Shown here: positions 7,965 to 60,972 of the stretch, one piece after another | How positions within the stretch are numbered: the stretch's first letter is position 1 | Layout of the letters: each line of letters starts with the position of its first letter | Virus record (IMG/VR): IMGVR_UViG_3300035181_000401 | Coordinates: 1 to 64,000 of that record | DNA: 64,000 bases | From: a virus | Direction: 5' to 3' (one strand) | Translations under genes and position numbers: made by a program | The notes under the pieces: model-generated | Told to the model about the DNA's origin: nothing | Database searches by the model: none | Seen by the model: the letters and a program-made list of their open reading frames with translations, nothing else

Positions 7965-8405
7965 ATGACGACCATCGATCCGTCCACAAATCTCGGCAAG
8001 GTCCGACTTCGGGTGGGTGATTGGTCCGACATCCCGATCCTTCCTGACACGGTAGTCAACCAGACCCTCACGGATTGTAACAACAATGTGATCCGTGCGA
8101 GTCAACTTTGTGCTCAGTACATCCTCGCGACACTGACTGCAAAGACACACCGCAAGCTGGCCCAACTTGAAACGTGGTCGTCGGAACAGTTCGACAACTA
8201 CGTCAAATTCCTTCAGATGACGGTTCTCAACCCTCACCTCTCTGGCATCGCTCCGGTGCCTTACGTGGTCGATTCGGGCGTCGAGAATCCCATCGAACAG
8301 TTCATCGAGAACTGGAAGGCTGGCTACGAACGTGGTGCTGTGGTTGTGCCGTTTGATCCGTACACCCCTGCTCCTTCTCCGGTGATCGTGAATGAACCAA
8401 TCTAA
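7965..8405 (+). CDS. head-tail connector (adaptor) protein
   Basis: 146 residues. The helical N terminus (NLGKVRLRVGDWSDIPILPD, then VNQTLTDCNN) has the pattern of gp6-type adaptor proteins that dock on the portal, and the C terminus is a Pro-rich tail. Its position, between the capsid block and the stopper-like gene, supports this. It overlaps the next gene by 14 bases. Confidence 0.7.
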   Translation: MTTIDPSTNLGKVRLRVGDWSDIPILPDTVVNQTLTDCNNNVIRASQLCAQYILATLTAKTHRKLAQLETWSSEQFDNYVKFLQMTVLNPHLSGIAPVPYVVDSGVENPIEQFIENWKAGYERGAVVVPFDPYTPAPSPVIVNEPI

Positions 8406-25753: not shown

Positions 25754-26023
25754 TTACCGCACCGAGTCCAGCGCGTCGAAGGTGTCGGCCGTGGCGCGGG
25801 CTTCCTTGAGCTTCGCGGCGTGCTTCGCCTTCAGGTACTTCGACAGGACGGCCTTCTTGATGCCCGTGGCTTCAGCCAGTTCTTCGACAGCCGTCTTGAA
25901 GGCGGACTTGGCTTCCTCCAGCGCGTCGAGCGCGTCGTTGGCCTCGCCCTTGCCGTTGCTGAACGCTTCGACATCGACTTCGTAGTCTTGCCCGTCGCCG
26001 AGCGTGATGGTGGTCTTGCTGAT
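25754..26023 (-). CDS. DsbA-like dsDNA-binding protein, AUC start codon
   Basis: 89 residues: an acidic N terminus, then a charged helical part (DALEEAKSAFKTAVEELAEA, TGIKKAVLSKYLKAKHAAKL). Length and the pattern of the last 50 residues resemble the T4 DsbA double-strand-binding protein, a late-transcription helper. An AAGGAG lies seven bases before an ATC codon. There is no ATG or TTG anywhere in the frame and the only GTG is next to the stop, so the most economical start is AUC. Family call is moderate. Confidence 0.68.
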   Translation of the reverse strand: MSKTTITLGDGQDYEVDVEAFSNGKGEANDALDALEEAKSAFKTAVEELAEATGIKKAVLSKYLKAKHAAKLKEARATADTFDALDSVR

Positions 26024-26040
26024 GGTAGTTCTCCTTGTGG

Positions 26041-38444: not shown

Positions 38445-39065
38445 TCAGAACTCATCGCAAACCGTATCGAACAGTTCGGCCAGAGTTCCATTGTTGTCAA
38501 TGATCTTGTCGGTATCGCTGTGGAACAGGACACCAGCTTCGCTTGCATGAGCGTTGACGGCTTGGGCGTCATTTCGACGCACGTGCCAGACGGAGCCGCC
38601 CAGTTTCCGGATCAGGTCCGCTTCGTTGTCGAAACGAACGTCCGTGATGACGACGCTCTTGTCTTCGTCCAGCCACGCGGCGATCTGCCGTTGGGCCACG
38701 ATGAGCCAGATGTCGTTGGTCACCAGTTCCCGCCCCCAATCGGTGCCGAGGGTTTGGAGCATCTGGCGAGGGCTCTTGCCGAAGTCCTCGATGACCGTCT
38801 CCTTGAGACTGCCGTGGACGTGTTCGTCCGTGAGGTTCAGCATCGTCTTGAGCCCTTCCTTGAGAGGCCGGGCGAAGGCGAGAGTTTCCACTTGGAAGGC
38901 GTCCTTCAACATCCCTGCAACGGTGTCCTTGCCGCTGCGTGCCTTACCCGTCAGCCCGATCAATTGGGGGCCACGGTAGGCGATGGGAGGGAAGACGTTG
39001 GGAGGCAGGCTACAGCCACCCGGGAGAGCCGCGACTTGCGGACCCTCCAGCACTTGATTGTCGAT
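38445..39065 (-). CDS. deoxynucleoside monophosphate kinase, AUC start codon
   Basis: 206 residues. P-loop LIGLTGKARSGKDTVAGML, then a TDVRFDNEADLIRKLGG segment characteristic of T4/T5-type dNMP kinases. It phosphorylates dNMPs to dNDPs. GAAAGGA lies six bases before the second of two adjacent ATC codons. The only upstream ATG-type codon would lie inside the preceding gene, beyond its stop; a GTG four codons later lacks a binding site. The AUC start is therefore the best reading. Confidence 0.78.
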   Translation of the reverse strand: MDNQVLEGPQVAALPGGCSLPPNVFPPIAYRGPQLIGLTGKARSGKDTVAGMLKDAFQVETLAFARPLKEGLKTMLNLTDEHVHGSLKETVIEDFGKSPRQMLQTLGTDWGRELVTNDIWLIVAQRQIAAWLDEDKSVVITDVRFDNEADLIRKLGGSVWHVRRNDAQAVNAHASEAGVLFHSDTDKIIDNNGTLAELFDTVCDEF

Positions 39066-39081
39066 GATGTGTCCTTTCTTG

Positions 39082-43207: not shown

Positions 43208-45640
43208 TTAATGGCATTCGGCCCAATTGCGCCCGAGAATGTAGTCGGCCGACAACGTGACGTTGAGTTTGTAGAAAGCACTCGTCTCACGGACTGCCTC
43301 TTGAATCAGTTCACCCGCGAGAGTGTAGCCGACGTAGTAGCCCTTATCGGAGTGACCGACTTCAGACCACGTAGGGTTTTCCTTGCGGAACGCCTTGGCA
43401 TCAGCCTCTTCCTTGAACGTCTTCCACTTGATGCGCGACTTGTGGACTTCCAACTGCGCTTCGTCGTGGTAGGCGATCATCTGTTGGACGAATGCAGCAT
43501 TCTTCCAGTCATCCCGGAAGAAGTCAACAGTCAGCCCAGCCTCTCGCATCTTCCGTTCGTGCAGCACCATCGCCCGCTTGGCGCAGATGACGCCCGCCGA
43601 TTGGAACAGAGAGTTGATGAGGGCCGAAGCACTGCGGGTGGGAATCTTGCGACCGTCCAGCCCGAGGATGTACTTCTTACCGCCCGTCGTCTCCCAGTAT
43701 TCCTTCAGCTTCTCGCCCAACGCAGCCAGAGGCTTCGCCGCTTGCCAGTAGGCCCCGTGGATCAGCGCACCGATATCCTCGGAGACGCCCACAGTCTTCG
43801 CCACTCGCTTCGGCATGGCACCGTAGGCGCACGCGTACTTCACAGGCTTCGCACTCTGCCGAGCGAACGGGAATGCCTTGCCAATCGCCTGAGACACCAA
43901 CGTCTCGATGAGCTTCGCCGTCTTCGTGTGAACGTCGTTCGGCTTCTCCATCGTCAGCGACAGGCAATAGCTGTGGTCTTCGTCGTCATACCGCCAGCAG
44001 TAGTGCGACTCGATCATCGCCTCAAGCGAGGCGAAATCGTAGCCCATTTGGTAGAAGCCGCCCTTAACGTCCGAGCCAAACATGCCCCGCATGTTCTCCC
44101 CGAAGAGAGACGTGATGCGAGGGATGTTAGCAACCAACCGATGCTTGAAGCGAGAAGTTCCCGCTCCGCACGAGTCAGCAGGAGTCGGGATGCGTCCATC
44201 CACAGCAATACGATCCGATGCCAGATAGCCCTTGCCCGCAAATTCATCATCTTCATCCATCTCATCAGGGTCCACCATGCCCCCGAGGATCGAGTTGCGG
44301 CGGTGGGAGTAGGTCAGGTACTCAGAGATGAGCTTGGCGTGCGGGAACTTGTCAGACAGTTCCAGCAGAGCCGGGTCCATTTCCTTTTCCTGCCCCACGG
44401 TGAACGTCGGGTTGGTGTAGACCTTCAACGGACGCCCGGGCTTGTGCAGCATCAGTTTGTTGCGCAGCTTGTCGGGCCTCACACCGAGGTTGTCACAACG
44501 GTCCTTGCAGAAGGGAGACGCCAGCGTTTGCTCGACGTAGCGTTCCACTGCATCCGCGAACTTGTCGGGAGACAGCTTGTTCTTCTTCGAGTCGCACGTG
44601 AGGTCACGTTCTTTGTACTGAGAGGGAACCCAGCCAAGCTCCACCAGCCAGCCCTTGATGTGCGTCGTGTCCTTCACGGTGGCAGGCTCCGTGGTCAGGA
44701 TGGGCACCTCCGGGTCCATCGGAAGCTTCCAGACAGTCCCGAAGAACTCAGCGGTACGCTCTTCCTCGTTGAACTTCCCGTTGTGCTTCTCGATGAACTT
44801 CTGCATGTGCGAAGACATCTCCCCGTTCTTCTTGAACTGAATCTTCGGGGGACAGTATGCCTTCGCCTTCGTAATGCCCATCGGCTTCGGAGGCAGCAGC
44901 GGCTCGACGATGAGACGGATTTCTTCCATCTTCTCGTCGAGGAACTTGATGTTCTCCCGGGCCAGCGTCTCGTTGAACGCGAAGCCACGGTGGGATTGCC
45001 GCGTCACGATGTCTCGCACGAGGTGTTCGAGGTTCATCGCGGAAGCCCAGTCCCAGCCCTCCATCTCGTCCAGCAGATGCAGGTAGAGCTTGACGTTCGT
45101 CTTGCAGTCCTGCTCGTTGTAGACCAGCATCTCCGGATGGTAGACACGGAACTCGGCACCCTTTGGATCGGAGTAGTGGATCAAGCCCAGTTCAAGAGCC
45201 TTCGCCCGCCAGTCGATCTTGTGCTCGCCGAGGCGGATGCCCCATTCGTCCAGCGAATGTCCACCGAAGCGGTCCGGGTTCAGACACTTCGACGCCACGA
45301 GGGTGTCAAAGATATCCACAGGTTTTCCACAGAAGGTGTCGCGTTCTCCGAACGAACGATCCCCCACCGTGTACTCGATGTCACAGTAGAGCTTGATAGC
45401 CAGCAAATCGAAGTCGAGGATGTTGTGGCCGATGATGACATCTGCTTCCTTCAGCTTATCTATGTACGCGCCACGAATTTCTTCGCCGACGAACCGCCAC
45501 GTCGCGCCAGTGTCCACGTCGATGATGACGGCACAGTGGATGACGAAAGTGGGCTTCAGCTTGAACGGTGCGCTCAGGTAGTCGATGCTCTGCTCGTTCA
45601 GCAGGTTGTTCGACTCGATGTCGGTTACGAATCGCTTCAT
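43208..45640 (-). CDS. family A DNA polymerase with 3'-5' exonuclease
   Basis: 810 residues. The N terminus has the exonuclease motif FVTDIESN and the second motif GHNILDFDLLAIK. The polymerase part has motif A-like YDFASLEAMIESHYCW, a motif B-like stretch KPVKYACAYGAMPKR, and motif C HDEAQLEV. Similar in plan to T7 DNA polymerase but longer. Replicates the phage genome together with the primase-helicase, SSB and exonuclease encoded nearby. GAAAGGACGC precedes the ATG. Confidence 0.93.
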   Translation of the reverse strand: MKRFVTDIESNNLLNEQSIDYLSAPFKLKPTFVIHCAVIIDVDTGATWRFVGEEIRGAYIDKLKEADVIIGHNILDFDLLAIKLYCDIEYTVGDRSFGERDTFCGKPVDIFDTLVASKCLNPDRFGGHSLDEWGIRLGEHKIDWRAKALELGLIHYSDPKGAEFRVYHPEMLVYNEQDCKTNVKLYLHLLDEMEGWDWASAMNLEHLVRDIVTRQSHRGFAFNETLARENIKFLDEKMEEIRLIVEPLLPPKPMGITKAKAYCPPKIQFKKNGEMSSHMQKFIEKHNGKFNEEERTAEFFGTVWKLPMDPEVPILTTEPATVKDTTHIKGWLVELGWVPSQYKERDLTCDSKKNKLSPDKFADAVERYVEQTLASPFCKDRCDNLGVRPDKLRNKLMLHKPGRPLKVYTNPTFTVGQEKEMDPALLELSDKFPHAKLISEYLTYSHRRNSILGGMVDPDEMDEDDEFAGKGYLASDRIAVDGRIPTPADSCGAGTSRFKHRLVANIPRITSLFGENMRGMFGSDVKGGFYQMGYDFASLEAMIESHYCWRYDDEDHSYCLSLTMEKPNDVHTKTAKLIETLVSQAIGKAFPFARQSAKPVKYACAYGAMPKRVAKTVGVSEDIGALIHGAYWQAAKPLAALGEKLKEYWETTGGKKYILGLDGRKIPTRSASALINSLFQSAGVICAKRAMVLHERKMREAGLTVDFFRDDWKNAAFVQQMIAYHDEAQLEVHKSRIKWKTFKEEADAKAFRKENPTWSEVGHSDKGYYVGYTLAGELIQEAVRETSAFYKLNVTLSADYILGRNWAECH

Positions 45641-48025: not shown

Positions 48026-48096
48026 TGGATTCTCCTGTGGGGTGCGTTCGTTGATGTGTTCATTATGCCTAGGACTTCAGGTCCACACAAGAGAAA

Positions 48097-55044: not shown

Positions 55045-56064
55045 TCAGCCAGTGTAGTTTTCGCCGGGGATCAGCTTGCGGAATTGAACAAACCCTTTCA
55101 GGTTGCCAGACCAGAAGTTGCCGTCGCGATCCATGTGCGACACGCCGGGCTCCCACGAACGGGGGAACATCGGCTCGTTGATGGTGGGCTCGTTGTCGTC
55201 CTCATTGCCGCTCTGTCGAGCTTGCATCGGAGTCCCTTGGTGCTCGAACGCCGAAGCGTGCTTGCGGTCATCGCCGACGAGACGTTGGAACACTTCCTCG
55301 CATTTCGCGACACCGTAGTCCACGTTGCGGAAGGACACGGCAGCAGAACGAGCGGCGCTCACCTTGCGTGCAGTCTCCACGTCGAGCCAGACGGGGTAGG
55401 AGGTGCCGTCTTCGGCTTCCTCGGTGATGAAGTACCGCATCCCGCCATTGACACGGACGTTCTCCACGTAGGGCAGATGCCACTCCCCCGGGTTGAGAAC
55501 CTGCGGCATTGATTGCTCGCGAGCCTCGTACATCACGCGAGCCAGTTCAGCCAGCGACGGGTCCGCTGCCTCGTGGTGGCGGAGCCAGAAGAAGTTCTCC
55601 AGTTCGGTGCCCGAGAAGATGGTCTTCATCATCTGGAAGGCTTCCGTCAGGCGGTTGTACACCTGTTTGTGGAAGCCCGCGTCGGCGAAGCCCTTGGAGT
55701 AGAGCATGGCGCTGTTCTTGGCGAGTTCCCACGCTTGTTCCGGGGTCACGGGGAACGCATGAGCGAAGCCGAGAGCCGGACCGATGTCCACGAGGCCATC
55801 GAAATCCTCGCCCTTGTCCTGCATTCCCTTGTTGGCTTCCCCGAAACGGATCGGGCGGCCGGTGAGTTGCTGCACCATCTTGGCGAACGGAATCGCCCGG
55901 CTCGATGCACTGCTCTTGGAGTCGGCCCGATGGGTGTTCAGTTCAGCGAGGATGATGCGGGGGTACTCCAGTTCATAGCTGATGAACCGGGAGCCGTTGC
56001 GTGCGAGGCTGTCCTTGAGGATGGTGGCCTTGACGCCGTGCTTGCCTTCGATGGTGAGGATGAT
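55045..56064 (-). CDS. thyX: flavin-dependent thymidylate synthase, AUC start codon
   Basis: 339 residues. Makes dTMP from dUMP with FAD. The ThyX signature appears as LNTHRADSKSSASSRAIP, a variant of the phage-type motif. AAGGAG lies five bases before an ATC, itself followed by another ATC. The first in-frame ATG after it lies beyond the signature motif, and the in-frame ATG before it (56124) lies deep inside the upstream hydrolase gene. The start codon is thus most likely AUC. Neighbouring dTTP genes are dUTPase and dNMP kinase. Confidence 0.85.
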   Translation of the reverse strand: MILTIEGKHGVKATILKDSLARNGSRFISYELEYPRIILAELNTHRADSKSSASSRAIPFAKMVQQLTGRPIRFGEANKGMQDKGEDFDGLVDIGPALGFAHAFPVTPEQAWELAKNSAMLYSKGFADAGFHKQVYNRLTEAFQMMKTIFSGTELENFFWLRHHEAADPSLAELARVMYEAREQSMPQVLNPGEWHLPYVENVRVNGGMRYFITEEAEDGTSYPVWLDVETARKVSAARSAAVSFRNVDYGVAKCEEVFQRLVGDDRKHASAFEHQGTPMQARQSGNEDDNEPTINEPMFPRSWEPGVSHMDRDGNFWSGNLKGFVQFRKLIPGENYTG

Positions 56065-56498
56065 GGTTTCTCCTTGCAGAAGCTGTGCCCGCCTATCTTG
56101 TGGCAGAGCATGTGTTTGGCCCACGTCGGCTTCAGCTTGATGCTGAAGAAGAACTTCTCATTGTTGAGAACGCGGGGATGTTGGGAGGCTGCATTGTACA
56201 ACGCAACCTTGTCCTCGTCAAGCTCCACAAGTCCGCTCTTCTTCCAATGCACCCACTGGAACTGGTGAGGCTCGGCGATCACTTGACAAGCTGTCTTACC
56301 TGTGGCATCTGCCCTGTTGTAGATGACATCGAGCACGGCTCTCTGGCCTTCGATGCTCTCCCCTCGGGCCTCTCGGTAGACAGCAGAGACTAGACAGGGA
56401 TCGGGTGGAGGTGGAGGGGGTGGTGCTGGGTCTTCGATTTTGGCTAGGAAAAAGGCAAAAACGCAAAACACCAAAATCGACTTCACAATTTTTTTCAA
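55938..56498 (-). CDS. cell wall hydrolase (SleB-like) with N-terminal membrane segment
   Basis: 186 residues as read. Hydrophobic N terminus (SILVFCVFAFFLA), a Pro-rich linker with seven prolines, then the SleB domain: VSAVYREARGESIEGQRAVL with the catalytic Glu in EARGES, and IYNRADATG. The domain ends near HSFCK, but the frame stays open for about 40 more residues, overlapping thyX by 127 bases. The tail is Ser-rich and looks non-native, so a lost stop codon is possible. TTG start with a weak binding site. Confidence 0.75.
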   Translation of the reverse strand: MKKIVKSILVFCVFAFFLAKIEDPAPPPPPPPDPCLVSAVYREARGESIEGQRAVLDVIYNRADATGKTACQVIAEPHQFQWVHWKKSGLVELDEDKVALYNAASQHPRVLNNEKFFFSIKLKPTWAKHMLCHKIGGHSFCKEKPSSSPSKASTASRPPSSRTASHATAPGSSAMNWSTPASSSLN

Positions 56499-59010: not shown

Positions 59011-59118
59011 GTATTTGGAATATCGATTTCAGGATTTTTGGACTTTGTTCCAAGGATTTTGGATCGCGCTGTCAATGCCACACGTCAACTCTTCCAACCA
59101 CTTCCAAGGAGAACCAAC

Positions 59119-59568
59119 ATAACCACTGTCCAAATTAAGCTGCTGGATGATCGTCTTCACGGCAACATGCCCAGCTACGCGACGAAAGGATCGGCGGCGC
59201 TCGATCTGTGCGCCTGTCTCCCCGACACCATCGGCATCGGCCCGGGTGGCGTCGAGATGGTGCCTGCCGGATTCGCTCTCGACATGGGGCGGGATGACCT
59301 CTGCGCCATGATCCTGCCTCGCTCCGGGCTGGGAACCAAGCAAGGGCTGGTGCTCGCCCACGGCACGGGCCTCATCGATTCCGACTACCAAGGCCCCATC
59401 TTCATCCCCCTGTGGAATCGTTCCAACCAGACCCGCTTCATCGAGCCGATGGACCGCATCGCTCAGATGGTGTTCCTCCCCGTCGTGAAGGTGGACTTCG
59501 AGCAAGTGGAGGACTTCGCTGTCAAGTCGGCGCGTGGCGAGAACGGCTTCGGCAGTACGGGGGTCTGA
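59119..59568 (+). CDS. dut: dUTPase, AUA start codon
   Basis: 149 residues. All five trimeric dUTPase motifs: GSAALDLCA, PRSGLG, GLIDSDYQG, RIAQMVF and the C-terminal RGENGFGSTG. AAGGAG lies seven bases before ATA, and the protein aligned from there (TTVQIKLLDDR) matches the N termini of bacterial dUTPases. No ATG is in frame after the terminator; a TTG 23 codons upstream has a cramped AAGGA. Start codon AUA is the simplest reading. It turns dUTP into dUMP for ThyX. Confidence 0.88.
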   Translation: MTTVQIKLLDDRLHGNMPSYATKGSAALDLCACLPDTIGIGPGGVEMVPAGFALDMGRDDLCAMILPRSGLGTKQGLVLAHGTGLIDSDYQGPIFIPLWNRSNQTRFIEPMDRIAQMVFLPVVKVDFEQVEDFAVKSARGENGFGSTGV

Positions 59569-60516: not shown

Positions 60517-60972
60517 ATGACGACATACCGCAAGACATCGCCCGCCCCCTCTTCCCTCGTGGCGGAGCCCTTCACAGACTATGCGGACGCCCGGACTCGT
60601 GCGGATGCGTTGGGCATCCCGTCCCGCCCCCTCCGCCGCATGACTCCGGAGGGCTTGCGATGGCTCGTCATCCGCCCGGGCATCCCGGCCCGTCCGTCCT
60701 TCGTTCGCGTGGCAGACTGGCACCCTTCGCCCCGCGTCCGTGCGGACATCCTCGGGGAAGTCATGGCCCGGATTCGTTTCGATATCGAAGCCCCGGAGCG
60801 TGACACGGACCGACAGCCCCGCGAAGTCATCCGCCCGCCTGTGAATGGCAACAGGCAACAGGAACGCCCCCGGGAGCCCTTCAAGCCCTCCCCCGGGCAT
60901 GTTGACCGCATCGGGCGGACCTCCCGGCATCCTTCCATGCAACGGAGGGAGAGGGAGCGCGTGACGGCCTGA
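60517..60972 (+). CDS. unknown basic protein
   Basis: 151 residues, Pro- and Arg-rich. N-terminal half may be folded (YADARTRADALGIPSRPLRR, GLRWLVIRPGIPARPSF); the C-terminal 60 residues look disordered. Basic, unlike the acidic genes that follow. Own promoter upstream and a hairpin after the stop. Function unknown. Confidence 0.65.
   Translation: MTTYRKTSPAPSSLVAEPFTDYADARTRADALGIPSRPLRRMTPEGLRWLVIRPGIPARPSFVRVADWHPSPRVRADILGEVMARIRFDIEAPERDTDRQPREVIRPPVNGNRQQERPREPFKPSPGHVDRIGRTSRHPSMQRRERERVTA

Follow-up and report, generated by a model that had tools for sequence, protein, structure and literature searches.

Bacteria normally refuse AUC and AUA codons as start signals, which raises the question of how to read a phage genome in which the dUTPase gene appears to start at AUA and three further genes at AUC. 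The window, that is, the whole 64,000-nt stretch of DNA analysed here, covers positions 1–64,000 of an 87,459-bp phage record. A 127-bp direct repeat at the record ends indicates a circular and probably complete assembly. Its gene content includes a phrog_979 terminase, DNA polymerase A, a primase/helicase, a ribonucleotide reductase and NAMPT, with ~16 tRNAs in an array that spans both record ends. Among the complete relatives found, G021 (IMGVR 3300016484_000447) is the nearest, with a terminase 72% identical; other relatives are more distant. A contig from another metagenome is 100% identical over 5.97 kb in a part of the genome away from the four starts, and among viral contigs we found no near-identical strains covering them. 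The nearest matches of the dUTPase are Burkholderiales enzymes, which hints at a Burkholderiales host; a search of bacterial genomes with terL to find the host gave no match. In an open reading frame at 60517–60972 on the forward strand, coding potential stops ~39 codons ahead of the stop codon.

Start codons of four phage genes

A codon model trained on long genes served to score all open frames, and Shine–Dalgarno (SD) sequences were sought without presuming a start codon; the scans used here favour strong SDs. This blind scan yields exactly four genes, at 26023, 39068/39065, 56064/56061 and 59119, each with a good SD at the usual spacing before AUA or AUC, coding potential that sets in there and no ATG, GTG or TTG that could credibly serve instead. 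The first-pass annotation had named AUC genes at 26023, 39065 and 56064 beside dut; all three reappear in the scan, but the latter two each open with a tandem ATC ATC rather than a single codon. The remaining starts in the genome are normal (96 ATG, 12 GTG and 4 TTG in a stricter call set), and the four genes make up 3.5% of about 113 in this phage.

On the forward strand, dut (59119–59568) encodes a dUTPase of 149 amino acids (PF00692, 3e-28; phrog_135, 4e-48). Its ATA lies at 59119–59121 and an AAGGAG at 59106–59111, confirming the spacing of seven bases first reported. In the codon-usage model coding begins at 59122, and the product aligns to E. coli Dut from residue 4. The earlier claim that the dUTPase N terminus aligns from the ATA is also borne out: among 19 bacterial homologues, ATG falls exactly at the ATA codon in 14 and within one codon in 18, with MTTIDLRVLD of Rubrivivax facing ITTVQIKLLD in the phage enzyme. 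Nor is there a usable in-frame alternative, as had been stated. ATG 58981 sits inside an apparent intrinsic terminator, TTG 59059 would demand a lengthy non-coding stretch, and a start at ATG 59167, which has no SD, would remove the first strand from the protein.

One small gene, placed by its SD and the coding scan, lies on the reverse strand (25754–26023) and encodes 89 amino acids with a weak match to an HTH regulator. It opens with ATC at 26023–26021, 7 nt after an AAGGAG at 26031–26036. Its open frame holds no NTG near the start, and the homologue in the relative G002 has an ATG exactly aligned to the ATC.

The thyX-like thymidylate synthase gene (55045–56064, reverse strand; phrog_85, 2e-72) has two successive ATC codons, 56064–56062 and 56061–56059, preceded by AAGGAG at 56070–56075 at distances of 5 and 8 nt, respectively; the first is more likely the start. 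Relatives have ATG, in some cases GTG or TTG, at the aligned place or within one to a few codons, and the GTG or TTG starts fit a gene under weak demand. Upstream on the same strand, the open reading frame of a cell-wall hydrolase, or lysin (SleB/Hydrolase_2; 55938–56498), matches the full PF07486 profile at residues 46–141 and overruns its expected end by 41 amino acids into the thyX start region. This tail is rich in Ser, Ala and Pro and comes from the thyX +1 frame; in the 12 relatives that we read, the lysin upstream of thyX stops 0–14 amino acids past its domain. Both oddities meet in one base, the C at 56062, third base of the presumed ancestral ATG(A) overlap, which turns ATG into ATC and the upstream TGA into TCA. 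Because the lysin overrun goes through this same base, AUG was likely ancestral at 56064, and one G to C change would have altered both genes with loss of an ATGA stop/start overlap.

The deoxynucleoside monophosphate (dNMP) kinase gene (38445–39068, reverse strand; phrog_139, 6e-54) begins with a tandem ATC ATC at 39068–39063, 3 and 6 nt after an AAAGGA at 39072–39077. Its first ~33 amino acids are not conserved, so what places the start is the SD together with codon usage and coding potential, and among the four cases it is the least secure because an in-frame GTG, although without an SD, is present at 39053.

A comparison of homologues had been proposed at the outset, and in it ATG starts fall on the same codon for dut and the 26023 gene or within one to a few codons for thyX; the refuting pattern, with homologues that begin at a different in-frame NTG, did not appear. 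The AUA or AUC codon is thus placed where homologues start in these three genes. Unlike in infC, the start codon is not itself conserved among orthologues, those of the relatives being ATG, GTG or TTG.

AUA, AUC and AUU starts in related phages

A homology-guided start scan covered 1,948 loci in 27 phage genomes and a codon scan 2,182 genes in 25 genomes. We accepted, after inspection, starts supported by homology or codon usage that lacked an NTG and stood behind a strong SD of the AAGGA/GGAG type. Eight genes were accepted among about 2,400 genes of the 27 genomes, four here and one in each of four relatives, and all eight start with AUA, AUC or AUU (AUH), none with CUG, ACG, AAG or AGG. In G005, a vWA gene starts with ATA at 44399 on the reverse strand, behind an SD, where relatives have ATG and G021 has GTG. 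An endolysin gene of G016 starts with ATT at 48052 on the reverse strand, again with an SD, and nine relatives have ATG at exactly that codon. On the forward strand lie an SD-led gene of G021 with ATC at 75410, whose homologue has ATG one codon on, and a conserved small gene of G032 with an SD and ATT at 8201, which has NTG-starting homologues and is identical in two metagenome assemblies. The AUH rate in relatives is ~1 in 570 genes, and overall ~0.3% of genes. We found no AUH start common to relatives for any of the eight genes, and none at all in two isolate phages (about 295 genes).

ATH triplets make up 5.6% of the codons adjoining real starts, and the chance of an SD facing one is ~0.11 per gene. 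The chance of four out of four SDs facing ATH is then 1e-4 and that of eight out of eight accepted starts being AUH 2e-8. Set against the frequency elsewhere, the four cases in this phage give a Poisson P of about 5e-5. All these values serve as guides only, since the tests use one scan with its thresholds, inspection removed some candidates and the phages are related to one another.

Other candidates in the relatives were treated separately. At G002:31535 and G003:39209 there is a possible ATA ATA start behind a weak AGGA, with one distant homologue only. NTG-less tail-assembly genes were rejected as AUH starts, as they look like frameshift products. A conserved gene without any NTG start, directly behind another frame, at G005:28586, G013:27590 and in homologues, is probably a frameshifted tail-assembly chaperone.

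On these comparisons, the AUH starts of this phage look real, derived, sporadic and enriched, and of a known but rare kind. The four genes are best explained by weak but working starts, derived from AUG, that would make low-level protein, a reading to which we give a probability of about 0.68. Weighing against it, AUH is not conserved between relatives, a 41-residue lysin extension is odd to select for, and the kinase has an unconserved N terminus.

An error of sequencing or assembly at the four bases, or a minority strain allele, is improbable. The sequence is a metagenome consensus, and the thyX base is doubly odd in losing a start and a stop at once. Yet random error would strike the third start base only about once in 700, making four such hits by chance negligible, and there is no frameshift in 199 homologue comparisons, a result that likewise disposes of general genome decay; across the assembly, a lost stop overlapping a neighbour occurs solely at the thyX base. 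Moreover, the ATT start of G032 is the same in two assemblies, and other relatives show the same codon class.

The genes might instead have been switched off recently, with essentially no product and with frames intact for lack of time. AUG is ancestral and the change private to this genome, the thyX base destroys the stop codon of a neighbour as an unselected mutation might, and dTMP could come from the host. We nevertheless consider such a loss unlikely, as the third start base is precisely what changed in all four genes, with no hit on an SD and no frameshift, although a gene can be lost in far more ways than this. Loss would also give CUG, ACG, AAG and AGG equally often, whereas every one of the eight cases, spread over five phages, is AUH. 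Weak working starts are therefore favoured over start-loss alleles, and the Pfam, phrog and Dut alignments indicate intact enzymes.

Three of the four genes act in dTTP synthesis, and IF3 represses the ATT-started infC of E. coli (ATC in Streptomyces) and the GTC-started sigR (PMC5472188). From the dTTP link and the normal rejection of such codons by IF3, the first-pass annotation had suggested that the starts keep these enzymes low or tie them to host IF3. A shared dTTP-synthesis mechanism or an IF3 tie did not hold up: no relative keeps AUH at any of the four, and where relatives do have AUH, the genes (for a vWA protein, an endolysin, a small protein and an unknown protein) are functionally unrelated, leaving it very unlikely that a circuit tied to IF3 or a dTTP programme maintains the starts. 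Avoidance of CATG was rejected as a cause: although each of the four ancestral starts would read CATG, so do the starts of 39 other genes. Pfam scans of 82 non-structural proteins revealed no phage translation factor.

The phage tRNA-Ile(GAU) as a candidate initiator

A bolder proposal is that the lineage actively uses AUH as a very weak start class for trace-level nucleotide-metabolism genes, possibly with AUC read by its own tRNA-Ile(GAU) as a natural non-methionine initiator, which we regard as highly improbable. The tRNA in question lies outside the window, at record positions 87187–87262, and has U1:A72 and C33 (loop CCGATAA). C33 also occurs in the tRNA-Ile(GAU) of G021, G018 and G017, with U33 in G014, G013 and G005. 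Nearby, at record positions 86963–87039 and likewise outside the window, an initiator-like tRNA-Met has U1:A72 and a GGC:GCC anticodon stem; the corresponding stems of relatives are GGG, GGC or AGG variants.

That the tRNA-Ile(GAU), with U1:A72, G2:C71, C3:G70, A73 and C33, itself initiates at AUC with isoleucine is extremely unlikely. AUC starts were found only in this phage and G021, both with the unusual tRNA, and in vitro IF3 accepts an engineered initiator with a GAU anticodon at AUC (PMC10158994). Among initiator elements, however, the tRNA has U1:A72 but a 29–31 stem of CGG:CCG instead of GGG:CCC, its 11:24 pair (C:G, where initiators have purine:pyrimidine) is of the elongator type and it carries IleRS identity elements. 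AUA is not readable by tRNA-Ile(GAU), Ep020 has a U1:A72 tRNA-Ile but no AUC start, and AUU and AUA starts occur in phages without such a tRNA. C33 may rather belong to the anticodon-loop changes that would protect phage tRNAs from nucleases; such changes have been proposed as nuclease protection in a study that does not name C33 (PMC10264068). The record also encodes an RtcB ligase and an RNA ligase within 61097–87459, partly beyond the window, which could plausibly repair tRNAs cut by anticodon nucleases of the host.

Probable weak initiation and its known counterparts

Under the favoured explanation of weak working starts, each AUC or AUA would have arisen by one third-base substitution from AUG with the SD kept. 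Initiation there would be infrequent and carried out by a normal 30S complex bearing the usual fMet-charged initiator tRNA with its CAU anticodon, the tRNA pairing with the first two bases and mismatched at the third, and IF3 would keep the rate low. The strong SD would help, and so, for the 26023 gene and the kinase, would a stop codon lying fewer than 20 nt upstream. The outcome would be small amounts of dUTPase, dNMP kinase, thymidylate synthase and a regulator-like small protein. From the sequences we infer the initiation at AUH codons, the amino acid used, the low protein level and any advantage; that the phage benefits from low expression is a guess.

The expected level follows from the third-base mismatch, which IF3 disfavours, and from figures for rpoS and for infC mutants, which together point to low expression of the four genes. 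A natural ATG to ATA change at the start of rpoS in E. coli O104:H4 leaves the protein still made, at most about 5-fold lower (PMC12864459), and reporter work, as cited in that study, gives up to about 1% of ATG. Fidelity mutants of infC raise non-canonical starts 3- to 15-fold (PMC5472188). Similar to the phage genes, rpoS involves a single-base change with reduced but continuing expression, but as one laboratory-acquired allele, as opposed to four wild genes in one phage. The infC gene, which encodes IF3 (ATT in E. coli, ATC in Streptomyces; PMC5472188), is likewise an SD-led bacterial gene at AUH, a third-base change from AUG; its weak start, however, is conserved and part of IF3 autoregulation, whereas the phage AUH codons are private to one genome and lie at metabolic enzymes. 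The GTC start of sigR in Streptomyces (PMC5472188) is also non-canonical and has been shown to be held down by IF3, but it is a different codon, it is kept throughout Streptomyces, and its role in regulation is known. Evolutionary change from AUG to AUH has a precedent in AUG to AUU switches in 36 triplets of prokaryote genomes (PMC5622118), at 1 in 61,358 AUG starts, an annotation-limited figure, against 4 in about 113 genes here.

We searched the literature for AUC, AUA, ATC or ATT starts in phages and found no report, which is no proof of absence. Gene callers as a rule accept only ATG, GTG and TTG, so AUH genes will be truncated or missed. The eight AUH starts placed here by homology and SD provide ready natural leaders for testing initiation at AUA, AUC and AUU and the limits set by IF3.
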